A stretch of DNA of 40,786 nt from a virus. Of this stretch, positions 2-37,719 are shown piece by piece (within the stretch, counting starts at the first letter, position 1; every line of letters starts with the position of its first letter). The stretch is from IMG/VR virus record IMGVR_UViG_3300027413_000015, positions 1 through 40,786 of that record. The stretch is one strand, 5' to 3'. The notes below the pieces were generated by a model, which was given only the letters and a program-made list of their open reading frames with translations, was not told the DNA's origin and did not search any database. Position numbers and translations under genes: made by a program.

Positions 2-760
2 GAGGGTAAGATAAAAGCTATTGAAAATTCGCCACTAGGTAAAGCCGTTGAAGCATGGGATGTGCAAATTGCTTTAGATTTAAATAGACTAATGAATGAT
101 CAAAAATACCTAGACGCACTTGATAAAAGGGTCGAAACTTTTAAGAATAGTTCCTTAAACTTTGAGATTAGTATGGCCACTAATATTGTACAAGGCGTAG
201 AGGATATAATATATGAAGCTATAGAATTTGTTAGAACTAGGTATGAAACTGTTATTGAAGTATTGCCATCAGTAGTACGTTCGTTTAACCACAGCGCAAA
301 GCATGGTAACAAACTATTTGAATGGAATGAAATGCTTAGTAAACTATCAATAGATACAAAAAGGTTTAAAGAAAAGTTTCATTTCTTGCAAGGTGATGTA
401 TCACATAAAGTATTCCATTATGCTGTACTGAGCATATATCATGGTGATATGTATTTGTCTCCGTTTGTATATGAGAATGCTCAAATACACACAGATGATT
501 TTAAAGTTGATAATGGTTGGCTTTGGTTACCAGATGCTGATATATCAGATTATATATTAAACAAGAAGAATGAAATTGTACAGAGACAGATTAAAGAAAG
601 CTCTGATAAAGAATGTGGTTCTTGTAAGTATTTAAATATATGTGCAAACAGAATGGTTCCAATGATTATGGATACAGTATTCAAAGGAAGAAAAGAATGT
701 ATTCTTAATAAAGAAGTTATAGAACTATTTGATGATGAGATATATCGTGGGTGTAGTTAA
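2..760 (+). CDS. Radical-SAM family protein, C-terminal part (5' end outside window)
   Basis: The frame is open from the left edge, so the start and the expected CX3CX2C cluster lie outside the window. GTG at 62 is an internal codon, not a likely start. The visible part ends in CGSCKYLNIC (CX2CX5C) followed by a distal Cys, the auxiliary Fe-S (SPASM/twitch) signature. The stretch YLSPFVYENAQIHTDDFKV aligns with FWTPFVYNIVMIGTDEYKV of the next gene, so this is a diverged paralogue of the two genes downstream. Its 3' end overlaps the next gene, consistent with an operon. The substrate is unknown. Assignment as a radical-SAM enzyme rests on the paralogy and the C-terminal cysteines. Confidence 0.72.
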   Translation, partial: EGKIKAIENSPLGKAVEAWDVQIALDLNRLMNDQKYLDALDKRVETFKNSSLNFEISMATNIVQGVEDIIYEAIEFVRTRYETVIEVLPSVVRSFNHSAKHGNKLFEWNEMLSKLSIDTKRFKEKFHFLQGDVSHKVFHYAVLSIYHGDMYLSPFVYENAQIHTDDFKVDNGWLWLPDADISDYILNKKNEIVQRQIKESSDKECGSCKYLNICANRMVPMIMDTVFKGRKECILNKEVIELFDDEIYRGCS

Positions 761-1862
761 GGATAATAGACAACAGGCTGTAAACTATCACAAAGACTTT
801 GATGTGGGAGTTGGAGACGGGCACGAGATAAAAGTCCTATTTAATTGTGAGATATTATCTGGCTGTGAGTTTAAGTGCAAAGGGTGTTTTGTAAATAAAG
901 CTGGTAGTAATATCGGATCTTTTGATAGATTAAATAATGCTATTGATTTATTTAATACCAATGGATACAGAGTATCTACTATTAATATAGGACCTTCTGA
1001 CCTATTTGGTAATAACAATATTAAACAGCTATTAAATGATAGCGTATTCAGAGAAGCGTTATCGAAGTGCTCCACCATAGAATTTGCTACAACGTTGGAG
1101 AATGTTGACGAGGAAGTAATAGAGCTACTTAATTCTATACCTAAGATAGACGGGTTTATGTATGACATAAATGTTATAATAGATCCATATAAATTTGTTG
1201 ATAATAATCAGTATAGGTCTTGGTTAAAGGAAGCTATTAATAAAATAAACTTATTTACTCACGATGCTGATTATCATATACAAATGAATATGGGTAATGA
1301 TGATAAGATTAATAAACGTATTGTGGAAATGTGTTACATAGTAGAGGATGAGTTTGATTCTATATTCATACTTAACCCTAGTTTCTTTAGAGCCAGAAAG
1401 AGTAAAACTCATAAGCAGCTTATAGAGAAATGGAGTAAGACTCTAAAAGAAGAATGGACTGATAATCATACTGAAGTCTTTCCTCTTACTATAGCTGATC
1501 AAGCACAAGGAGGTTCTTTAGAACTTAACTTCACATACTGTAATGAGAACTTTTTCTGGACACCGTTTGTATATAATATTGTTATGATTGGTACAGACGA
1601 GTATAAAGTACAAGATGAAAATGATATCAATTCTTGGACACAAGTTAAAGAAAATCAATTCTTAAAACAATTAACATATTCAAATCAGACTAGCGAATGT
1701 AGTGGATGTGATAATATACTTACATGTATTGATAAAGGTGTTTTAAGTTATATGGAACATCATATGCTAACCGATTGTGTATATCCATCTAAAAATCTAA
1801 AGAGTGTATCTAATAATAAAAAAGTTTCTTTAACGACTGGGTTTGAATTTAAGGCAAACTAA
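732..1862 (+). CDS. Radical-SAM/twitch-type protein, paralogue 2
   Basis: The N-terminal motif CEFKCKGC is the CX3CX2C site that binds the catalytic [4Fe-4S] cluster and SAM. The C-terminus has CSGCDNILTC (CX2CX5C) plus a later Cys, an auxiliary cluster site. The usual GGEP-like SAM motif is replaced by INIGPSDLFGN. The start is uncertain: ATG occurs at 732 and 735, but GTG at 747 gives VGVVKDN, which lines up with MGIITNN at the start of the next paralogue and may be the true start. No strong ribosome site separates these options. It overlaps the upstream gene and ends one base into the next start (TAATG), so the three plus-strand genes are probably translationally coupled. The reaction is unknown; peptide or protein modification is the usual role of SPASM-type enzymes. 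Confidence 0.85.
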   Translation: MMRYIVGVVKDNRQQAVNYHKDFDVGVGDGHEIKVLFNCEILSGCEFKCKGCFVNKAGSNIGSFDRLNNAIDLFNTNGYRVSTINIGPSDLFGNNNIKQLLNDSVFREALSKCSTIEFATTLENVDEEVIELLNSIPKIDGFMYDINVIIDPYKFVDNNQYRSWLKEAINKINLFTHDADYHIQMNMGNDDKINKRIVEMCYIVEDEFDSIFILNPSFFRARKSKTHKQLIEKWSKTLKEEWTDNHTEVFPLTIADQAQGGSLELNFTYCNENFFWTPFVYNIVMIGTDEYKVQDENDINSWTQVKENQFLKQLTYSNQTSECSGCDNILTCIDKGVLSYMEHHMLTDCVYPSKNLKSVSNNKKVSLTTGFEFKAN

Positions 1863-2878
1863 TGGGTATTATAACTAATAATAAATCAGCAGCACAGGCT
1901 GACAAAGACTTTGACCTAACCTTTAGAAAAGGTCATGAAGTTAAAGTACAGTTTAATTGTGAGATATTATCTGGCTGTGAATTTAAATGTAAGGGTTGCT
2001 TTGTAAATAAATTAGGAAGTAATGTAGGTGAATTTGATAAACTAAATGATGCCATTGACTTATTTAATAATGAAGGTTATAGAGTATCAACAATTAATAT
2101 TGGTCCTACTGACCTGTTTGGTAATAACAATATAATTACTTTACTACAAAATGAAACCTTTGTAAAGTGTTTATCGAAAGTTTCTACTATACAATTTGTT
2201 ACTACTCTTGAGAATATTAATTACCAAGTTATTAAACTTCTGAACGATATTCCTAAGAAAGATGGTTTTATGTATGACTGTAATATTGCTTTACAGCCAC
2301 CTGTAGACTGGGATAGGATGGAGGAAAGATTAGAGTTATTAAACGACTTTAAAGATGATCTAAATTATTATTTTGTCTATAATATGGGTAACGATGATGA
2401 GTATAACAGTGAAGTATTGGCTATGAACTACCTAGCAGACCTTCGCTTTGATACTATAATACAACTTAATCCCTCATTCTTCCGTGCTAAGAAATCTAAA
2501 GTACAAAAGCATCTTATTGAGAAATGGAAAGGCTATGACTTTTCTGACGATCTATACCCTAAAACAATTGTAGATAAAGCACAGGGCGGAAGTCTTGAAC
2601 TTAACTATACGTTCTGTAATAATAGATTTTTCTGGACTCCATTTGTATACGACATTGCCTTAATCGGTACAGAGGAGTTTGAAGTAAAAGATGTAAATGA
2701 TATAGACAGCTGGATAGTACCAAAGGATATACAGTTTACAAAGCAATTACGATATTCAAGTAAAGCGGATAACTGTTCTACTTGTTCTAATCTAATGACT
2801 TGTATTGATAAAGGTGTGCTATCTTATATGGAGCATCACTCACTTACAGCGTGTGTTTTTCCTGGAGTCTTTTCATAA
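1862..2878 (+). CDS. Radical-SAM/twitch-type protein, paralogue 3
   Basis: A 338-aa close relative of the preceding gene. Long identical blocks include FNCEILSGCEFKCKGCFVNK, GYRVSTINIGP, DLFGNNNI and AQGGSLELN, so the pair is a tandem duplication. It has the CX3CX2C cluster site near residue 40 and CSTCSNLMTC (CX2CX5C) near the C-terminus, then a distal Cys. As in its sister, a GP(S/T)DLFGN motif stands where GGEP is usual. AAGG about 9 bases upstream of ATG 1862 is the ribosome site. The last 43 bases overlap the 3' end of the convergent minus-strand radical-SAM gene. The substrate is unknown. Confidence 0.88.
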   Translation: MGIITNNKSAAQADKDFDLTFRKGHEVKVQFNCEILSGCEFKCKGCFVNKLGSNVGEFDKLNDAIDLFNNEGYRVSTINIGPTDLFGNNNIITLLQNETFVKCLSKVSTIQFVTTLENINYQVIKLLNDIPKKDGFMYDCNIALQPPVDWDRMEERLELLNDFKDDLNYYFVYNMGNDDEYNSEVLAMNYLADLRFDTIIQLNPSFFRAKKSKVQKHLIEKWKGYDFSDDLYPKTIVDKAQGGSLELNYTFCNNRFFWTPFVYDIALIGTEEFEVKDVNDIDSWIVPKDIQFTKQLRYSSKADNCSTCSNLMTCIDKGVLSYMEHHSLTACVFPGVFS

Positions 2879-3936
2879 TTAAACCCTGTGATTAGATTTT
2901 GTCCAGTTTTATCCATATAGTTAAACCACATTCTCATAATACAATCTGGTAAATCTCTTTCACGGTTCTTCCAATCCCATTGTGTATAGCAACGGAATCC
3001 ACATTTATTCCACCACTTACAAGACAGACAACCATTCTCGTCCATATATGCTTGCATCATACCAGCATTATCTTTACGTTCATACTTTGTATTAAAGTCT
3101 CTCTGATCGTATCTATCCCACCTACAGTTTGATGTAGAGTTATCAGGAAAGATGGTAACCTTATTAAGAGCCAAACAGTGCATATGATTACTCTCGTTAT
3201 AGATCAGATCCTTAATAGGATTTATATCCGGATAGTTATGATATACAAACTTTAAGAACTCAAGGTACTTACTATCAGATGGAATCATATAGTCATAACC
3301 ACGATCTGGAATATAATCGTCAAAGTAAAAGTTATCAAACTTTTCATATAGGTAATGGAAATACTCATCATCATCTGCCATAAATTTCTCAATGGAGATA
3401 GTTGTTGCAACCATATTGATAGATGTAATATAATCTGCAAAGTGTTCTATGTTCTTACCATAAGGTCCTTTGACTGGTCTACCATCAAAGTCATATGAGC
3501 AAATAATATAAGATGGTATATCTACAGCATTTAGATCATCAAGTAATTTCTGTACTCTATCTCTTTTACTGAACTGAAAAGAAGTAACCCAAACAACTTT
3601 AATATTTTGTTTATGTTCGTCAAACATTTTCTTAATAGCAACCAGAAAGTCGTAGTACACTGGATAAGCCCATTCAGATATTCTATCTTGGAACAACTCA
3701 CCACCTACCATGTTAATCTGAATAGTGTCTACTCGACCTTTCATCTTAATAACATGTTGCTCAACTAAATCTAATTTTGAGAATATTTCTTCACGTGATA
3801 AACCTACTGTAGATTTCTTATCGTGGTGACAAAAAGAACAGTTAAGATGACAATTTTCAAACAGCGTTAGTTCTATCTCAGCGATGTCTGGTCGCTTAGA
3901 TTCAAGAAGCAGTTTGGTTGTGTCAAAGTTGTCCAA
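2836..3936 (-). CDS. Radical-SAM/SPASM protein D
   Basis: A 366-aa protein. CHLNCSFC at residues 29-36 is the CX3CX2C radical-SAM site, MVGGELF supplies the GGE SAM motif, and CLSCKWWNKCGFRC (CX2CX5CX3C) with a later Cys is a SPASM auxiliary-cluster motif. Translation appears to begin at TTG 3936, with GAGG about 10 bases upstream, inside the end of the preceding gene (14-base overlap). It is the last gene of the minus-strand run and converges on the plus-strand radical-SAM genes. SPASM enzymes typically modify peptides or proteins. The target here is unknown. Confidence 0.87.
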   Translation of the reverse strand: MDNFDTTKLLLESKRPDIAEIELTLFENCHLNCSFCHHDKKSTVGLSREEIFSKLDLVEQHVIKMKGRVDTIQINMVGGELFQDRISEWAYPVYYDFLVAIKKMFDEHKQNIKVVWVTSFQFSKRDRVQKLLDDLNAVDIPSYIICSYDFDGRPVKGPYGKNIEHFADYITSINMVATTISIEKFMADDDEYFHYLYEKFDNFYFDDYIPDRGYDYMIPSDSKYLEFLKFVYHNYPDINPIKDLIYNESNHMHCLALNKVTIFPDNSTSNCRWDRYDQRDFNTKYERKDNAGMMQAYMDENGCLSCKWWNKCGFRCYTQWDWKNRERDLPDCIMRMWFNYMDKTGQNLITGFNYEKTPGKTHAVSE

Positions 3937-4324
3937 TCAACATTTCCTCTTTATAGTATTCGTATATGTCTGGTACCATACCTTTAGATTCGTTCCATTC
4001 CATTTTATCTAATATAGCATCATATGTTTCTTCATCTTGCCAGTAAGGTACAAAGTGTGGATCATTATTAAAAAGCAAGTCTTCGTCATTAAGTGCATGA
4101 TAAAATGGTTCCTGAAAATCATGACCAAGCCAGTATGCATAGCATATAGCAACTACATAAGATTTGGCTGGATATATCCACTCATCAACATACTGAGTAA
4201 AATGTTTAAGAGCATCTTCAACTACAGTATTAGGTCTCCAAACAGTTTCTATGTTAGTCAGATCATCCTTAAAAAGAGATGCCGTCATGTGATATGCCGC
4301 TTGTCTGGCTTTCCATTCTTTCAT
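3923..4324 (-). CDS. Unknown 133-aa aromatic-rich protein within the radical-SAM operon
   Basis: I do not recognise this family. The protein is acidic and rich in Trp, Tyr and Phe, with a probable helical middle (DALKHFTQYVDEWIYP...) and a segment DPHFVPYWQDEETYDAI. It has only one Cys (about residue 60), so it is not an Fe-S enzyme. It is embedded between two radical-SAM genes, overlapping the upstream one by 56 bases and the downstream one by 14 bases, so it is co-translated with them. AAAGGA lies about 13 bases upstream of ATG 4324. It is the only member of the run without an enzymatic motif and could be a substrate, a chaperone-like carrier or a docking partner. That is inference. Confidence 0.75.
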   Translation of the reverse strand: MKEWKARQAAYHMTASLFKDDLTNIETVWRPNTVVEDALKHFTQYVDEWIYPAKSYVVAICYAYWLGHDFQEPFYHALNDEDLLFNNDPHFVPYWQDEETYDAILDKMEWNESKGMVPDIYEYYKEEMLIGQL

Positions 4325-5219
4325 AATATTCTAATAATCCTTTATATCCATTACAACTGTTTGTTAAATCTTTTACATAACGATAATGTTCTGTTAGACA
4401 ATTACCATAGTATTTACACTTTTTACATATATCTGATAGATTTTTTTCTGGTTCTTCTTTTGCCCATTGTTTGTATTCGTGATACGAATCGTACTCTTTA
4501 AAGTATTCTTTATCGTACTGGTCAAATTCTAATACACCAAATTTACCAGATGGTGTAATATACACATGGTCATTAGAGAATGCATCATATTCTCTATCTA
4601 TACTCCTGTAGATATTGTGAATATTTTGAAAGTCAAAATTCTTAGCTGTCTTGGCTTCATCAAACCTAATTACAAAGTCCTCAAAGTCTTTATGGGTAAC
4701 AGGGTGAGCATTTGCTTGGTTAATAGAGTAAGGCTTGATTTCTACAGAAGTCACGTTGTAAATCATATTAAGTGTAAAGACCATGAACTCAACATCCATT
4801 TCTAAAACTTTAGGCGATGCTAAGATAAGAACAGAAATTTCTTTATCAGTCTTCATCATATTATCTAATACAAATTGTTCTTTCTCGCGAGCATGAAAGT
4901 CATATGATACAGATAAAGTCACATCTTCATCACGGAAGAAATCTGGAAAGGCAGATAGATTTGTATTAATATTAATTGGTCCGTCATAGTATGTACGAAT
5001 AACGTCCTTAATAGAATAATAATAATCTGAAGAAAGTAGACCTATTTCACCACCATATAAATCAACGTGACTAATAGGATCTGTTATTTGTTGCATCGAG
5101 TTGTGTAACCACAATGGTGTTATCTTATGTCTATCACTTAGTTGAGCCTCTGTTAGATAGCAAAAGTCACATCTAAAATTGCAATAGTAAGTTGGATTAA
5201 TGGATAGATTCATCGACAT
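4269..5219 (-). CDS. Radical-SAM protein C with C-terminal CX2CX5C
   Basis: A 316-aa protein. CNFRCDFC at residues 13-20 is the CX3CX2C catalytic cluster site, DLYGGEIG near 53-60 carries the GGE SAM motif, and CKKCKYYGNC near the C-terminus is CX2CX5C with a distal Cys, giving a reduced SPASM or twitch layout. ATG 5219 has GGAG about 9 bases upstream; a second in-frame ATG at 5213 is less well placed. It overlaps the upstream radical-SAM gene by 23 bases and the downstream 133-aa gene by 56. The substrate is not identifiable. Confidence 0.87.
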   Translation of the reverse strand: MSMNLSINPTYYCNFRCDFCYLTEAQLSDRHKITPLWLHNSMQQITDPISHVDLYGGEIGLLSSDYYYSIKDVIRTYYDGPININTNLSAFPDFFRDEDVTLSVSYDFHAREKEQFVLDNMMKTDKEISVLILASPKVLEMDVEFMVFTLNMIYNVTSVEIKPYSINQANAHPVTHKDFEDFVIRFDEAKTAKNFDFQNIHNIYRSIDREYDAFSNDHVYITPSGKFGVLEFDQYDKEYFKEYDSYHEYKQWAKEEPEKNLSDICKKCKYYGNCLTEHYRYVKDLTNSCNGYKGLLEYYERMESQTSGISHDGISF

Positions 5220-6234
5220 ATGGTGTCACTCCATCAGGGCTCATTCCGTTTATCTCAAGTATGCGAGGGGCTAATGTTTTCATCTGCTTACAGTGATCCT
5301 CTACAATACCTTCTCTTTTCATATCTCGCACGGTTTTCTTACAGCCATTACATATTTCAAACATAGGACAAGTATAGCAAGCCATTTTCATAGTCTGTAT
5401 ATTAGGATCATCTTGAAGAGGTGTCTGCATCTCACCATTCATCTCAGTCTCAAAATCAATAGGATAATCCATATCATCAGCAAAAGAGCCACAAGAGTAA
5501 TAGTCACCACCTGGGTTCATAGCTCTAATACCCGTATCACATAATCTATTCTGAGGGCAAGATGTTGCTGATCCACCGAGGCGTTTCATCATTTGCTTTG
5601 TATTATATTCGTGATCTGCTAATCCCATATCATATATTTTAATATACGTCTCGTATATCTTAGATAGTCGATATGTGGTACCTTGCACACCAGAAGCCAT
5701 AGCATAATTTAATTTACACTCAACACCCATTTCTTTTGCTAACTCAACATTCTTAATAGCAAGGTGTTCGTTCTCATCTGTTATGACGGCAATAAAGTCT
5801 GGTCTTTCTCCAGTATGTTTAAGCATAGCATTAGATACCATCCAGAAATCACTCTCAGTAAATTCTGAATAGTCACCTTTTAATCTACCACCACCATATT
5901 GAAATGATGTAGCACAACCAAATCTTTCATTCTGAAATATAGGAAGCCATTTCTCTGGTCGCATTAAGAAAGGCCATAAATTAGATGTAAACGATATAGA
6001 TGCTTTATAATCATGCTCATCTAAGTGGTCGATTAATTCTTGATACCATTCTGGTTTAACCATAAGAGGATCGCCACCGTTAACAATAATAGTATTGCAA
6101 TCTGGCCATCTTTCAAGAAACTTGTAGATATAGTTTAAGTCTAATAAACCAACCTCATTAGGATCGATATCAGTAGACGAACAGAAAGTACATTTAAAGT
6201 TACAAGCCTCTGTTGGTTTTACAATTAGATCCAT
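5197..6234 (-). CDS. Radical-SAM/SPASM protein B (anSME-like layout)
   Basis: A 345-aa protein. CNFKCTFC at residues 11-18 is CX3CX2C and VNGGDP near 51-56 is the SAM motif. The C-terminal half has a full two-cluster SPASM arrangement: Cys residues around CPQNRLC, then GGDYYSCG, then CYTCPMFEICNGC and a final Cys. This is the layout of anaerobic sulfatase-maturating enzymes and peptide-modifying SPASM proteins. No sulfatase is present in the window, so a sulfatase-maturation role is not implied. It overlaps both neighbours by short stretches (10 and 23 bases), consistent with a coupled operon. Confidence 0.88.
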   Translation of the reverse strand: MDLIVKPTEACNFKCTFCSSTDIDPNEVGLLDLNYIYKFLERWPDCNTIIVNGGDPLMVKPEWYQELIDHLDEHDYKASISFTSNLWPFLMRPEKWLPIFQNERFGCATSFQYGGGRLKGDYSEFTESDFWMVSNAMLKHTGERPDFIAVITDENEHLAIKNVELAKEMGVECKLNYAMASGVQGTTYRLSKIYETYIKIYDMGLADHEYNTKQMMKRLGGSATSCPQNRLCDTGIRAMNPGGDYYSCGSFADDMDYPIDFETEMNGEMQTPLQDDPNIQTMKMACYTCPMFEICNGCKKTVRDMKREGIVEDHCKQMKTLAPRILEINGMSPDGVTPYVDESIH

Positions 6235-7256
6235 TCTTTTTCTTTCGCAAGTTTCATCATTAAAGTTTTAGGAGCAGGGCATACATCATCCATCCATACT
6301 AGCTGATGACAGTCTGAATGGCAATACATAAACACAGGGCAAGAATAACATCTTGGATCACGCTCATGTTGTTCACACGAAATAATTTCCATACGTTTAG
6401 GGCTTAGTCTTACTTCTTTTGCTGGAGTATCTATATGTCCATAATGCATAGTAGGTGCTGTATTAGGGCAACCTGCTACTGTACCATCTGCATTTATGGT
6501 ATGTATCTTTTGCTCACAATCACGACAGAACGTACCTATTCTAAATTGCCCTGCGCTAAACTTCTCATATACAGATTGCATAAAACCATTTTCAACTGGA
6601 TGGTTTTCAGTCTGCTCATGCATTAACATCCACCAATCATCTAAATCTTTATTATGAGGAAAAATATCTGTATTGATAGTAGCGTTACCATCATGAGTTA
6701 GCCTCTCATATGATATTTCTCTTATGCCTAGCGAATGCATATAGTCTGCAATATCTATAGGCTGTAATTTTATAACGTCTTTAGATACAGATATAAAGCA
6801 TTTTAGAGAATGGCCAAGTGATGTGAGATGCTTAACATTATTCTCCCACATCTTTCTTTGATGCTCATTAGTAAAACGTATGTTAGGATCCCATGACGTA
6901 CCTATATTACCGCCTGTGATAACCTCATCAAAGAACGCTAGTTTTTCTTCTGTAAGTTTAAAAACAAGGTTAGTGGTTATACCATGAGTAGCCCTATCAC
7001 CCCATTGTGCTTTTGTTATATCATGAAACTCACGTAGGTTTGCCATAGGAGCCAACATAGGCTCACCACCATGATATTCTAAATGTATAAGGTTATCGCC
7101 TGTGTCTAATTCATTACACCAGTTAGCTGTTTTAACATGATCAAAGTAAATCTTTCTACCATTCATACCAGATGTAAAACAATGGGCGCAATTTAGATTA
7201 CAAGTTTCAGTCGTTTTTATGTATACTACTGAGTGTGTTTGTGTCGTTAATGCCAT
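6225..7256 (-). CDS. Radical-SAM/SPASM protein A (anSME-like layout)
   Basis: A 343-aa protein. CNLNCAHC at residues 19-26 is CX3CX2C and EYHGGEPM near 60-67 is a canonical GGEP SAM motif. The C-terminus has FCRDC, then DGTVAGCPN, then CYSCPVFMYCHSDC (CX2CX5CX3C) and a last Cys, a complete SPASM domain. Of the six radical-SAM proteins here it looks the most canonical. ATG 7256 is the only reasonable start. It lies inside the 3' end of the cupin gene (50-base overlap) with AGAAGG about 14 bases upstream. SPASM enzymes of this shape oxidise or crosslink residues in peptides. The substrate is unknown. Confidence 0.89.
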   Translation of the reverse strand: MALTTQTHSVVYIKTTETCNLNCAHCFTSGMNGRKIYFDHVKTANWCNELDTGDNLIHLEYHGGEPMLAPMANLREFHDITKAQWGDRATHGITTNLVFKLTEEKLAFFDEVITGGNIGTSWDPNIRFTNEHQRKMWENNVKHLTSLGHSLKCFISVSKDVIKLQPIDIADYMHSLGIREISYERLTHDGNATINTDIFPHNKDLDDWWMLMHEQTENHPVENGFMQSVYEKFSAGQFRIGTFCRDCEQKIHTINADGTVAGCPNTAPTMHYGHIDTPAKEVRLSPKRMEIISCEQHERDPRCYSCPVFMYCHSDCHQLVWMDDVCPAPKTLMMKLAKEKEWI

Positions 7257-7677
7257 AACTGTATGTTAATGCCTTCTCATAATTTATTGCTCTATGTTCT
7301 ACACCAGCTCTCAAAAACATATTTTGACCTGGGCTCATATGATATTCACCGTTGAATGTTTCAATACATTTGGATCCGTCTATAACTTCTATTATAACAT
7401 TAACCGGATCAGAGTGTAATGGGAAAGTAGGTCCACCTGCTGGCGAATAAAATATATGTATAGTACCATTTTCAATATATTTAAACTGCTCATAACCTTC
7501 TATCTTAATAGTGTCATCACCGCTCATCCACAGGTCGGTTATTTTACCTCTGTAGGCCCATATATCTGTTTGTTCTATATATCGTTGTCTTTGATGTTCA
7601 TCTATAAAAGATACCAAGCATTTTTCAAAACAATCTTCTGACAACAGAAATTCGTAAAATTCATCAAATGATTTCAT
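7207..7677 (-). CDS. Cupin/JmjC-like protein with HxD...H metal site
   Basis: A 156-aa protein starting at ATG 7677 with AAGGGC 7-8 bases upstream; longer in-frame starts at 7698 and 7710 lack a ribosome site. FPLHSDP places H88 and D90, and GVEHRA places H128, forming an HxD...H facial triad on a cupin core (VNVIIEVIDGSK, YHMSPGQNMFLRAG). This is the Fe(II) site of cupin-type 2-oxoglutarate oxygenases, although a clear 2OG-binding Arg or Lys is not obvious. It is the first gene of the minus-strand operon and overlaps the next by 50 bases, so it probably acts with the radical-SAM enzymes. A metal-dependent hydroxylase acting on the same target is plausible. A non-catalytic cupin is the alternative. 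Confidence 0.72.
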   Translation of the reverse strand: MKSFDEFYEFLLSEDCFEKCLVSFIDEHQRQRYIEQTDIWAYRGKITDLWMSGDDTIKIEGYEQFKYIENGTIHIFYSPAGGPTFPLHSDPVNVIIEVIDGSKCIETFNGEYHMSPGQNMFLRAGVEHRAINYEKALTYSYGINDTNTLSSIHKND

Positions 7678-7742
7678 AATAGCCCTTGTTAAGTACATTA
7701 TATATACCATTATATATACAGATATAATATGAGGAATGCGAA
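7678..7742. promoter_or_regulatory. Divergent AT-rich promoter region
   Basis: These 65 bases separate the minus-strand cupin/radical-SAM operon from the plus-strand oxygenase gene. TATAAT boxes can be read on both strands (7723-7728 on plus; two copies of TATAATG on minus), and TATATA-ccat-TATATA forms a small inverted repeat. None has the TTTACA box 17 bases upstream that marks the other promoters of this genome, so it may be a different promoter class or need an activator. GAGG before ATG 7743 and AAGGG before ATG 7677 are the ribosome sites. Confidence 0.4.
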
Positions 7743-8309
7743 ATGGTTTTAATTGATAACCTATGGCCTACACAAATAGGTAGCGGTAAGTTTGACACTA
7801 CAGGATTAGTAGAACATATATTCACCCATCACAATATGTCTAATCCTCCGAATGATCTCAGCGGATATAATATATTAGATGATGATAATAGTGAAGTAAT
7901 GAATAAATTTAAAAGCACCGCATATGATTGCTTTGATTCATACTTAACTAAAACAATAGGTCGTCCTATTAGTGATTGGAATAACTATAGTCTCAAGGGG
8001 TGGCTTACTGGTCAAGGTAAACACTATAGTATGGCTAAACATAATCATGCTGGGTGTCAACTATCTGGAGTATTTTATATACTAGCAGAAGATCAAACCT
8101 CTGGAGGAGAGATAGTATTCTCTGATCCTAGATCAAATTGCAACAGAGGTTATGATCCTTATTTTAAACCAATGTTTGATAATCATATACATGCTCCGAA
8201 GACAGGGGACTTTATGATCTTTCCGAGTTTTACTTATCACGCCGTTAATCCATTCTTCTCAGAACTAAGAATATGCATGCCAGTGGATCTGTTTCTTAAC
8301 AGACAATAA
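7743..8309 (+). CDS. 2OG-Fe(II) oxygenase superfamily protein
   Basis: A 188-aa protein. The core HNHAGCQLSGVFYI (H100/H102), a middle GGEIVFSDPR, and the end GDFMIFPSFTYHAVNP (H166) with R176 ten residues later match the phage-common 2OG-Fe(II) oxygenase type (Pfam 2OG-FeII_Oxy_5-like). H166 and R176 fit the distal iron ligand and the 2-oxoglutarate-binding Arg. Such enzymes use Fe(II), O2 and 2-oxoglutarate to hydroxylate a substrate; marine T4-like phages often carry them, mostly with unknown targets. GAGGAAT precedes the ATG. It is divergent from the radical-SAM operon and 11 bases upstream of the PLOD-like gene, so probably co-transcribed with it. Confidence 0.85.
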   Translation: MVLIDNLWPTQIGSGKFDTTGLVEHIFTHHNMSNPPNDLSGYNILDDDNSEVMNKFKSTAYDCFDSYLTKTIGRPISDWNNYSLKGWLTGQGKHYSMAKHNHAGCQLSGVFYILAEDQTSGGEIVFSDPRSNCNRGYDPYFKPMFDNHIHAPKTGDFMIFPSFTYHAVNPFFSELRICMPVDLFLNRQ

Positions 8310-8320
8310 AGGAATAAATT

Positions 8321-10249
8321 ATGAAAAAGATAATTATCAATTTAAAGAAGCGTCACGATAGACTAGCCAATTTTAAAGCAAAGCATCAGTGGTTAGAAGA
8401 CTATGATGTACTAGAAGCTGTTGATGGTAATACCATTACTCATGAGAAAATGCTAAAGAACGAATTTAGTATTAACCATAAGTGGAGAGATCCATTTAAA
8501 AATAGACGTATCACAAAAGGTGAAGTAGGCTGTTTCTTATCTCATTATAAAGCATGGCAACAAGTTGTACAGCATGGTAAACCTTGTATTATATTTGAAG
8601 ATGATGCAATCATTGATAAAAATTTATGGAAAGAAAATGATTGGGGCGAATGGATAGATGAGCATAATATTGATGTTTTATATCTAGGTCATAATGAGAA
8701 TGAATATGGAGCTAGGAAAGACGGTGCAAGACCAGAATTAGTTAAACCTGGATATCCATACAACTTACATGCTTATATTCTTACTGTGCATATGGCTAAT
8801 GAATTACTCAATACAGGATTTCATACTGAAATTATTCCAGTAGATGAAGTTGTTGCAGGTAAAGTTTTAACTCATAACATACAAGCACTTGAAACAGAAG
8901 CTGTCACACAAGAGAGCAGAGCAGTGATGGGATCAGATATTGAACCTCAAAGTCACGATGATTGGTTTCAAAACTTCAATGTACATGCAATTACAGTAGG
9001 AACTGATAGAAAGAAATGTGCTGCACTTAATGATAGTGCGGCGATAAATGGCTTTAGTGTTAAGAACTTGGGTACCAATGTCGATTGGCATGGTACTGAT
9101 ATGGAGGGTCCAGGTGGAGGACATAAGGTAAACCTAGTTAGAAACTATTTAGATCAGTTGCCTGAAAATGATGTTGTACTATTTACAGATGCATATGATG
9201 TGTTCTTTATAAACGGCTTACAAGAAATTACTAAACGTTGGATGGATGCTTCTGTAGAAATTCTATTTGGATCAGAAGCATCGTGTTGGCCAGATGAAAG
9301 TATGACGATCAAGCATCCAGAGACTGGCTTATCTAAATATAGGTTCTTAAATAGTGGCCAATATATTGGTAGAGTAGGAGCTTTAAAAGACTTCTTTGCT
9401 GAACGATTAAATGATTCAGATGATGATCAGTTGTATATGCAAAGGGTATGGTTAAATGATACTACTAAATTCTCTGTAGGTTTAGATTACGAACAATATA
9501 TTTTCCAAACTCATGAACCTGCATGCCAAGTACATAATGAATTATATAACCCTATTACTAATACTGTACCTTGCTTATATCATGGTAATGGTGGTCCTGA
9601 AGCTAAGATACTATTCAATGAACTATGGCAAACTGTTTATTCAAAAAAGATGGCAGATCAAAACCCTGTTATTCCTGTTGCTGATACTAAAGTAACATCT
9701 CCTATGTTTATTCCACATCAAGGTAAGATTGATATTATTGATAAAGATATGTTTATTATTGACTTTATGACTCAGAGTCAATGTGAGAGACTTATTGAAA
9801 TGGGTGATAATCATGGTGAATGGGCTCCTATGCCAGAAGATAAGTTTCCTGCATATGAAATTAGGGTAAAAGAATTAGGTTTCTGGGATGAGATGAGTAA
9901 TCATTGGCAAGAACATGTCGTACCTATTGTTGAGAAGTATTGGAAGCCAATTGAGATGTATGGTATGCGAGATGCATTTATTATGCGATATTCAGTGGAT
10001 ACTCAAAAGAGTTTACCTTTACACAACGATGCATCTCTTGTAACAGGTTCAGTAAAACTTAATGATGATTATAAAGGTGCTTCTTTAGTTTACCCTAGGC
10101 AAGGTGTGAATAATGATGATGTACCATGCGGTAAGATGATCCTATTCCCTGGATTAGTTACTCACGGTCACGAATGTACTGAATTAACAGAAGGGGTAAA
10201 ATATAGTTTTACTATGTGGACTCAACGTTATCCCGGAGATGTAAATTGA
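8321..10249 (+). CDS. GT25 glycosyltransferase / LH3-like glycosyltransferase / PLOD-type lysyl hydroxylase fusion
   Basis: A 642-aa three-domain protein. Residues 1-200 are a GT25 (LPS glycosyltransferase-like) domain: IIINLKKRHDRL, EVGCFLSHYKAW, IIFEDDA at 91-96. Residues 215-445 match the glycosyltransferase domain of LH3/PLOD3: AITVGTD, GGGHKV, FTDAYDVFF (D290/D293), YLNSG-type RFLNSGQYIG, DDDQLY, HGNGGP. Residues 465-640 match the PLOD lysyl hydroxylase domain: RYSVDTQKSLPLHNDAS with H568xD570, and a distal His at 617. The 2OG-anchoring position ten residues after H617 is Lys627 rather than the usual Arg. In animals these activities hydroxylate Lys in collagen and add Gal then Glc; mimivirus L230 is a viral example with two activities. 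AAGGA lies before ATG 8321. The substrate here is unknown, possibly a fibre or other virion protein. Confidence 0.88.
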   Translation: MKKIIINLKKRHDRLANFKAKHQWLEDYDVLEAVDGNTITHEKMLKNEFSINHKWRDPFKNRRITKGEVGCFLSHYKAWQQVVQHGKPCIIFEDDAIIDKNLWKENDWGEWIDEHNIDVLYLGHNENEYGARKDGARPELVKPGYPYNLHAYILTVHMANELLNTGFHTEIIPVDEVVAGKVLTHNIQALETEAVTQESRAVMGSDIEPQSHDDWFQNFNVHAITVGTDRKKCAALNDSAAINGFSVKNLGTNVDWHGTDMEGPGGGHKVNLVRNYLDQLPENDVVLFTDAYDVFFINGLQEITKRWMDASVEILFGSEASCWPDESMTIKHPETGLSKYRFLNSGQYIGRVGALKDFFAERLNDSDDDQLYMQRVWLNDTTKFSVGLDYEQYIFQTHEPACQVHNELYNPITNTVPCLYHGNGGPEAKILFNELWQTVYSKKMADQNPVIPVADTKVTSPMFIPHQGKIDIIDKDMFIIDFMTQSQCERLIEMGDNHGEWAPMPEDKFPAYEIRVKELGFWDEMSNHWQEHVVPIVEKYWKPIEMYGMRDAFIMRYSVDTQKSLPLHNDASLVTGSVKLNDDYKGASLVYPRQGVNNDDVPCGKMILFPGLVTHGHECTELTEGVKYSFTMWTQRYPGDVN

Positions 10250-36777: not shown

Positions 36778-37719
36778 ATGACTAACTACAGCCAACCAAA
36801 ATATCCAATCTATATTATCTCTAAAGGTAGGGCGGACTCTCGCCTTACTTCTAAGACATTGGATGAATTAAATGTGCCGTATCATATTGTTATCGAAAAA
36901 GATGAGTATGATGCTTATGCAGAAAACATACACCCTAGCAAAATTCTTACATTGCCTGATGGATTCCGAGAGGATCCTGAACTAGCTCTTGGTGATGCTG
37001 CAGGGCGAGTTGGTGGTAGTATACCAGCAAGAAATTTTGTATGGCAGCATGCTATATCAACTGGTGCTAAACGTCACTGGATTATGGATGATAACATTCG
37101 TCACTTCTATCGTGTACACCAGAATAAGAAAACTATTGTAACTAATGGTAATGTGATCCGTGCTTGCGAAGAGTTTACTGATCGCTTTACTAATGTTGCA
37201 ATGTCTGGTATGAATTATCAATACTTTGTGCCAGCATCTCAAAAGAAAAGACCTTATACACTTAATACTAGGGTTTATTCTTGTATTCTACTGCGTAATG
37301 ATCTACCGCACCGATGGCGTGGTAAATATAATGAAGACACAGATTTAAGTCTGCGTATTCTAAAAGATGATCATTGCTCTATTCTTTTTAATGCATTTGT
37401 TTGTGGTAAGATGACTACCCTAGTTATGGGTGGTGGCAATACAGACAATGTTTATATTGATGGTGATAATCGCCGTACCTTTGCAGAAGCACTTAAAGAA
37501 CAACATCCGGATATTACAGAAGTTGTTTGGCGCTACAATCGTTGGCATCATCATGTAGATTATTCTGGCTTTTCTAAGAATAAACTTATATTTAGAGATG
37601 ACTATGAAAAGAAAGCTGGAGTCAACGAGATGGGTATGGAAATGGTCAGACTTACTAAAGATCAACATATCAAACATAAAGAAACATTTGGAAATACAGA
37701 GGATAGATATTATGGCTAA
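36778..37719 (+). CDS. TET-associated-type glycosyltransferase (TAGT-like)
   Basis: A 313-aa GT-A-type protein. PIYIISKGRADSRLTSKTLD opens the nucleotide-sugar fold, HWIMDDNIRHFYR at 100-112 has an acidic metal motif (D104/D105), and RWRGKYNEDTDLSLRIL places NEDTD at 185-189; a late WRYNRWHHHVDY block follows. This combination fits the family described with phage TET/JBP oxygenases, proposed to glycosylate oxidised pyrimidines in DNA. No TET-like gene is in this window. GGAG lies 7-8 bases before ATG 36778, with its own early promoter. DNA modification is inferred from family, not shown. Confidence 0.72.
   Translation: MTNYSQPKYPIYIISKGRADSRLTSKTLDELNVPYHIVIEKDEYDAYAENIHPSKILTLPDGFREDPELALGDAAGRVGGSIPARNFVWQHAISTGAKRHWIMDDNIRHFYRVHQNKKTIVTNGNVIRACEEFTDRFTNVAMSGMNYQYFVPASQKKRPYTLNTRVYSCILLRNDLPHRWRGKYNEDTDLSLRILKDDHCSILFNAFVCGKMTTLVMGGGNTDNVYIDGDNRRTFAEALKEQHPDITEVVWRYNRWHHHVDYSGFSKNKLIFRDDYEKKAGVNEMGMEMVRLTKDQHIKHKETFGNTEDRYYG

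Follow-up and report, generated by a model that had tools for sequence, protein, structure and literature searches.

What is a battery of radical S-adenosylmethionine (SAM) enzymes doing in a T4-like phage? The question is raised by the first 7.7 kb of the IMG/VR record IMGVR_UViG_3300027413_000015. The window analyzed here is that entire record (40,786 bases) and represents part of a T4-like phage. As an earlier note on this DNA had recognized, virion genes of that type accompany the island: genes for the head–tail adaptor, head closure, tail sheath stabilizer, terminase, sheath, portal, and major head proteins were found in the window. The island holds seven radical-SAM-type open reading frames (ORFs A–G), one more than the earlier note had counted, together with a cupin and a 133-aa protein (P133). 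It makes up the right half of a widespread, conserved cassette, and the record stops short of the substrate gene. Here, we suggest that the cassette probably modifies the Cys–His tail of a virion or surface fiber protein, in a manner resembling ribosomally synthesized and post-translationally modified peptides (RiPPs). The target that the earlier note had left open is, with good support, a fiber-associated protein carrying a C-terminal (CHxS)3-RGRR tail.

The neighborhood is conserved in related phages, a point that the earlier note had proposed to check. Gene clustering of 64 non-redundant loci gave a constant core of cupin, G, F, E, P133, and D, with a 2-oxoglutarate (2OG) oxygenase present in most of them. 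In loci of the window type, the core is followed leftward by the A/B/C radical-SAM paralogues, the genes c15 and c16, another A, two small genes, and c21, a collagen/Peptidase_G2 tail fiber-like gene. Loci of the other architecture read cupin, G, a small gene, and c18, after which D, F, E, and P133 occur, interspersed with other enzymes; c18 is a homologue of c15 (hhalign 98.6%). The island is cut because the record ends there, inside ORF A, and the tail genes escaped the earlier note for the same reason. A sister contig (IMGVR_UViG_3300020169_000058), which shares 85% DNA identity across positions 7–7800 of the window, extends further left and encodes two tail genes approximately 5.8 to 6.2 kb left of the window's first base, adjoining a tail-fiber gene. 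The cassette is not confined to T4-like phages. The same genes were found by tblastn in cultured jumbo phages of different lineages, namely Burkholderia phages FLC6, FLC8, and SURPRISE13, Pseudomonas phage DT01, Sinorhizobium phage Phosso, and Agrobacterium phage Atu_ph07, and scans of IMG/VR gave at least 362 relatives of G and 204 of P133. Phage-type cassettes also occur on contigs binned as Euryarchaeota, Rickettsiales, and Rhodobacteraceae (L279, L282, L287, L289, and L295), which are probably phage contigs misplaced in cellular bins.

The products of the small genes in the cassette are 124 to 364 aa long, come in one or two copies, and have nearly identical C termini: [VIL]-C-H-x-S-C-H-x-S-C-H-x-S-R-G-R-R, directly before the stop codon, with RSRR as a variant ending. 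The tail usually consists of three C-H-x-S modules. A DNA pattern of the tail, with Cys, His, and RGR fixed, was searched across IMG/VR contigs and species genomes. It gave at least 253 reading-frame matches, and 251 of the 253 matches listed end exactly at RGRR; the other two are GC-rich chance matches. The pattern matches L284, L285, and L292 were rejected as coding tails. Because the pattern preset Cys, His, and RGR, independent evidence comes from the stop codon, the Ser at module position 4, and gene linkage. This Ser, which the pattern left free, is present in 136, 121, and 134 of 145 distinct proteins for the three modules, respectively (among the matches listed).

The linkage of the tail gene to the cassette is tight. 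There are at least 135 coding tail loci, and 129 of the 135 listed have cassette radical-SAM families in the surrounding DNA examined; several of the remaining six are very short pieces, or contigs whose other loci have these families. Among the loci fetched by G or P133 instead of the tail, all 30 with the right region encode the tail protein. Where G is not followed by F, as in the other architecture, a tail gene is found within 1.5 kb 3′ of G in 16 of 16 such loci, and window-type loci spanning c21 to c16 contain tail genes in 14 of 14 cases. Among the matches listed, the gene flanking a c23-type tail gene is G on the 5′ side in 63 of 76 cases and c18 on the 3′ side in 55 of 73, and the c27-type (window-type) tail gene has the tail-fiber gene c21 as its 5′ neighbor in 19 of 19. 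The genes, their conservation, the conserved tail, and its linkage to the cassette and to fiber genes are observed directly. The layout is RiPP-like, in that a ribosomal candidate substrate with a conserved core is encoded beside modifying enzymes (16/16 and 14/14 in the tail-independent loci; 129/135 among the matches listed).

The bodies that carry the tail fall into at least two groups, and homology between c27 and c23 was not detectable. The tail is constant while the bodies diverge to ~20% identity. Because the same tail is found on bodies without detectable homology, the enzymes would recognize the tail itself. Neither Pfam nor NCBIfam contains a family covering the tail proteins, and the related PHROG_35144 is annotated as "unknown function." A tblastn search of phages with a 37-aa tail peptide gave no match, the query being too short. 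The predicted structure of the c27 tail protein (predicted local distance difference test [pLDDT] 78.7) consists of a helix, a β-hairpin, and a helix, and its tail is poorly predicted. Resemblances of this model to a pore-toxin hairpin and an S74 chaperone (E > 0.1) were not used. In some large phages (L199 and L217), two tandem tail proteins of 247 to 309 aa lie by G, like the short form in window-type phages.

Is the tail protein part of the virion? The tail is present in the cultured jumbo phages SURPRISE13, FLC6, DT01, Atu_ph07, and Phosso. The tail gene of Atu_ph07 is gp170, whose product ends in ...CHSSCHASCHNSRSRR. According to the available text of the genome report, the virion proteins of Atu_ph07 detected by mass spectrometry are mostly encoded in coding sequences (CDS) 31 to 76, 170 to 215, and 284 to 329 (PMC6102473), and gp170 is the first gene of the published cluster CDS 170 to 215. 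SURPRISE13 gp069 and FLC6 gp68 are annotated as virion structural proteins, and they adjoin the cupin gene or lie one gene away. In pelagimyophages, the corresponding region has been named the host recognition cluster, where radical-SAM cassettes were noted as variable elements between vrlC and the neck gene (PMC7029224). This setting resembles the one described here, whereas the available text of that paper proposes no substrate, tail motif, or function.

The same cassette occurs in Bdellovibrionota. Nine genomes of this group have tail matches, and all of them encode G and P133; P133 was found in 16 of 291 sampled Bdellovibrionota genomes. One cassette lies on a 4.15-Mb contig, and this copy is therefore chromosomal. 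The gene order is E, A, BC, A, c18, a 347-aa protein of no assigned family, the tail protein, D, P133, F, cupin, and G. The tail variants include YCHTNVPTPPPCHASRGRR, YCHGNFPPPCHGSRGRR, and YCHSNHCSHSNHGSRGRR. In the chromosomal copies L314 (G246:C1, 490000–509900), L316, L317, and L312/L313, the tails have two modules or are irregular, as against the usual three. The c23 body is homologous to the bodies of the Bdellovibrionota tail proteins (hhalign 97.8%). The F sequences from Bdellovibrionota do not form one clade in a midpoint-rooted tree. Adjoining the cassette is a gene for a protein with a prepilin N terminus and a Peptidase_S74 chaperone domain (2e-14); of the eight larger Bdellovibrionota loci examined, seven have homologues of this protein and of its 194-aa neighbor close to the cassette. 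A relationship of the 194-aa gene to the C terminus of c21 was considered and rejected, the comparison being not significant. Fiber genes with intramolecular chaperone domains thus accompany the tail protein in both phages and Bdellovibrionota. Bdellovibrio uses S74 fibers, the mosaic adhesive trimers (MATs), for contact with its Gram-negative prey (PMC10769870). The Bdellovibrionota cassettes likewise adjoin a Peptidase_S74 gene, but that gene has a prepilin N terminus, and the CHxS protein is not a MAT. Radical SAM is not mentioned in the main text of PMC10769870.

The assignment of ORFs A–G is based on motifs, their conservation, and profile matches. Each of ORFs B–G has a single CX3CX2C motif, with a single CX2CX5C motif downstream of it. 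ORF A (2–760, plus strand; family A, radical-SAM/SPASM-type) is 5′ truncated and shows the second motif only (CGSCKYLNIC at aa 205), so that its catalytic motif is hidden by the window edge as the earlier note had stated; its full-length relatives keep CX3CX2C. When homologues of at least 250 aa were counted, CX3CX2C was kept in 43/43 (B/C), 54/57 (A), 49/51 (D), 55/55 (E), 52/55 (F), and 44/45 (G), or 297 of 306 in total; truncation or a wrong start accounts for the exceptions printed. The site is thus conserved, and the occurrence of the two motifs in the A–G families is not due to chance. Since both CX3CX2C and an auxiliary-cluster Cys motif further downstream are conserved in the families, the proteins belong to the radical-SAM/SPASM group. 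ORF B (735–1862, plus; CEFKCKGC ... CSGCDNILTC) and its tandem paralogue ORF C (1862–2878, plus; CEFKCKGC ... CSTCSNLMTC) belong to the A/BC subfamily. They have trace similarity to known radical-SAM models and match phrog_31457 (1e-10 and 2e-4, respectively), a family of unknown function; they are assigned because of the motifs and their conservation in the A/BC family. The core enzymes D (2836–3936, minus), E (4269–5219, minus), F (5197–6234, minus), and G (6225–7256, minus) match PHROG_1802 "radical SAM" at E values of 2e-19 to 8e-57. D and E are radical-SAM/SPASM-like. F alone is above the cut-off of Pfam Radical_SAM, and G, which directly adjoins the tail-protein gene in the other architecture, is alone above that of the SPASM domain model TIGR04085.

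None of the seven proteins scored above the cut-off of any NCBIfam equivalog or curated radical-SAM pathway model. D–G reached 17.9 to 22.9 of the 180 bits for viperin (NF038283), F reached 38.3 of 349 bits for the anaerobic sulfatase maturase (TIGR03942), and G reached 19.5 of 350 bits for the CXXX-repeat maturase (TIGR04115); no cofactor or queuosine model was matched above cut-off by the radical-SAM proteins in the window. The queuosine, cofactor, viperin, and sulfatase readings were rejected, with scores far under the curated cut-offs, and the exclusion of known unrelated pathways on which the earlier note depended is borne out.

P133 (3923–4324, minus; phrog_20737) was regarded in the earlier note as the only possible precursor peptide. 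Its AlphaFold2 model is a confident and compact fold (pLDDT 90.8; predicted template modeling score 0.87), and the protein is conserved in phages and Bdellovibrionota and carries no tail. With this predicted fold and distribution, P133 is a partner protein of the cassette core, not a precursor; the likely substrate genes are those on the sister contig. The cupin (7207–7677 or 7710, minus) has a conserved HxD...H motif, and it is probably an Fe(II)/2OG-type hydroxylase.

Here, a working scheme is put forward on the basis of gene content. The complete cassette would supply the tail protein, the core radical-SAM enzymes D, E, F, and G, the A/B/C paralogues in the window type, P133 and c18/c15, and the cupin and 2OG-Fe(II) oxygenases. 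After translation, the enzymes may act on the portable Cys–His tag of the tail protein. The modified protein would then be displayed on the virion beside the tail fiber, or on a surface fiber in Bdellovibrionota, where the tag, chemically hardened, crosslinked, or metal-binding, would contact the Gram-negative cell under attack. Such a host-contact role is the function that we favor, with some reserve. SPASM radical-SAM maturases form C–C, thioether, or C–N crosslinks. The most likely chemistry here would be a crosslink at each H-x-S unit accompanied by hydroxylation, the latter suggested by the cupin (HxD...H) and 2OG oxygenases of the cassette. Three-residue cyclophane enzymes link an aromatic or His residue to the C-β at position i+2 (PMC11002830), and the H-x-S spacing would be compatible with such a linkage. 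The H-x-S crosslink itself is offered tentatively, as a specific guess that could well be wrong. Equally speculative is the broader idea that machinery shared by phages and predators builds a polycyclic Cys–His tag that engages or breaches the Gram-negative outer membrane. The earlier note's proposal of multi-enzyme modification of a phage or host protein is thus upheld as regards an undescribed system acting on a phage protein, and its chemistry stays conjectural.

Several points weigh against this scheme. No modified residue has been observed, and the tail is a putative substrate judged from sequence and gene context. The window itself has no tail gene, and its presence in this phage is deduced from the sister contig. 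The search pattern preset the tail's Cys, His, and RGR, so their invariance counts only in the loci fetched otherwise. Several cassette enzymes match the Pfam and NCBIfam radical-SAM models weakly, the P133 model has no match among PDB folds, and the c27 tail-protein model has no significant match in PDB or BFVD. Finally, the presence of gp170 itself in Atu_ph07 virions is presumed from the cluster limits given in the available text of the paper.

Among known systems, the His-Xaa-Ser (Hxs) system (TIGR03977/TIGR03978) also combines at least two radical-SAM maturases with an H-x-S repeat protein. G and F are weakly similar to HxsB and HxsC (30 of 370 and 23 of 268 bits, both far below cut-off), but the repeat of our cassette is C-H-x-S with a fixed RGRR end, and P133, c18, the cupin, and the fiber genes lie outside any Hxs model matched. 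The maturases of triceptides, or three-residue cyclophanes (FxsB, XyeB, HaaB, and YhhB), are SPASM radical-SAM enzymes for which His-containing motifs are known (PMC11002830). They act on short bacterial precursor peptides, whereas the candidate substrate here is a full-length fiber-linked phage protein, and no equivalog cut-off was reached. The best NCBIfam similarity of F is to the dynobactin maturase DynA (6e-12), and G matches DynA and the darobactin maturase DarE; the score of F for DynA (NF041298) is 45.2 of 450 bits, and the substrate and gene context differ.

The tag could instead be a sorting or anchoring signal, comparable to PEP-CTERM and MYXO-CTERM, with the enzymes processing or lipidating the tail to fix the protein to a fiber or membrane. 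Its C-terminal position, Arg-rich end, and portability between unrelated bodies would suit such a signal, as would the exact termination at RGRR (251 of the 253 matches listed). However, the tail is not preceded by a hydrophobic segment, the cassette members scanned gave no match to lipidation, sortase, or rhombosortase models, and four to seven radical-SAM enzymes are more than tail processing would need; we consider this explanation unlikely. To a similar degree improbable is excision or conversion of the tail to a small-molecule or peptide product (pyrroloquinoline quinone/mycofactocin-like or bacteriocin-like) directed against the host or rival phages, with the body serving as a large leader. 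The RiPP-like layout, the SPASM-type relatives, and the relatives of halogenases and B12 methylases in some islands are in keeping with it, but bodies of 124 to 364 aa adjoin tail-fiber genes, gp170 starts a virion-protein cluster in the available description of Atu_ph07, and no transporter or leader peptidase was recognized among the cassette genes scanned.

Cys–His repeats can bind metals without modification, and the tail might be an ordinary motif of this kind, with the radical-SAM enzymes modifying a host protein, tRNA, or lipid. This idea is nevertheless very unlikely, given the gene adjacency and co-occurrence in phages and Bdellovibrionota and the constancy of the tail where the bodies diverge to ~20% identity. 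Phage Fe–S genes were earlier read as auxiliary metabolism (PMC5332604), and the genes might accordingly serve host Fe–S, queuosine, or cofactor pathways. A-type Fe–S carrier genes (PF01521 above cut-off) are indeed present in 5 of 24 island-bearing virus records, a count without a matched control set. These carriers fit better as an Fe–S supply to the cassette, no pathway model was above cut-off for the radical-SAM proteins in the window, and the tail linkage would go unexplained; auxiliary metabolism is the least probable of these explanations. Modification of the Cys–His tail of a fiber-associated protein is the reading that we retain.

The enzyme class is known; the substrate, the tag, and the setting are new. 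To our knowledge, no radical-SAM tailoring of a virion protein has been described, and literature searches, whose coverage left out most subscription papers, gave no description of this system or of such tailoring. In papers on the phages that carry the cassette, its radical-SAM genes are either counted with the accessory proteins or given no explanation. If the proposal is correct, it would explain the batteries of radical-SAM and Fe–S assembly genes in marine T4-like viruses and would hint at a chemistry common to phages and predatory bacteria for contact with Gram-negative prey. A viral structural protein would be armed with natural-product chemistry, offering a portable peptide-modification tag. 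The 16-residue portable tag makes the system directly testable in cultured phages.

To the right of the island are a 2OG-Fe(II) oxygenase (PF13759; 7743–8309, plus), which usually accompanies the cassette, and, outside the core, a glycosyltransferase/2OG-Fe(II) oxygenase fusion (phrog_61; 8321–10249, plus). Related islands elsewhere encode a B12-type radical-SAM enzyme resembling C-methyltransferases and a tryptophan-halogenase-like flavoprotein (L152, 3551–5227; L086, 19235–20518). The SURPRISE13 cassette (L003, 20001–21178) contains two annotated dihydrofolate reductase genes, the first of which was confirmed by Pfam (1e-46). The PF01521-bearing records are those behind L015, L045, L068, L166, and L176, and their carriers possibly supply clusters to the radical-SAM battery. 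At 36778–37716 of the window, a protein matches the PHROG for β-glucosyl-HMC-α-glucosyltransferase (2e-42), which hints at modified DNA in this phage.

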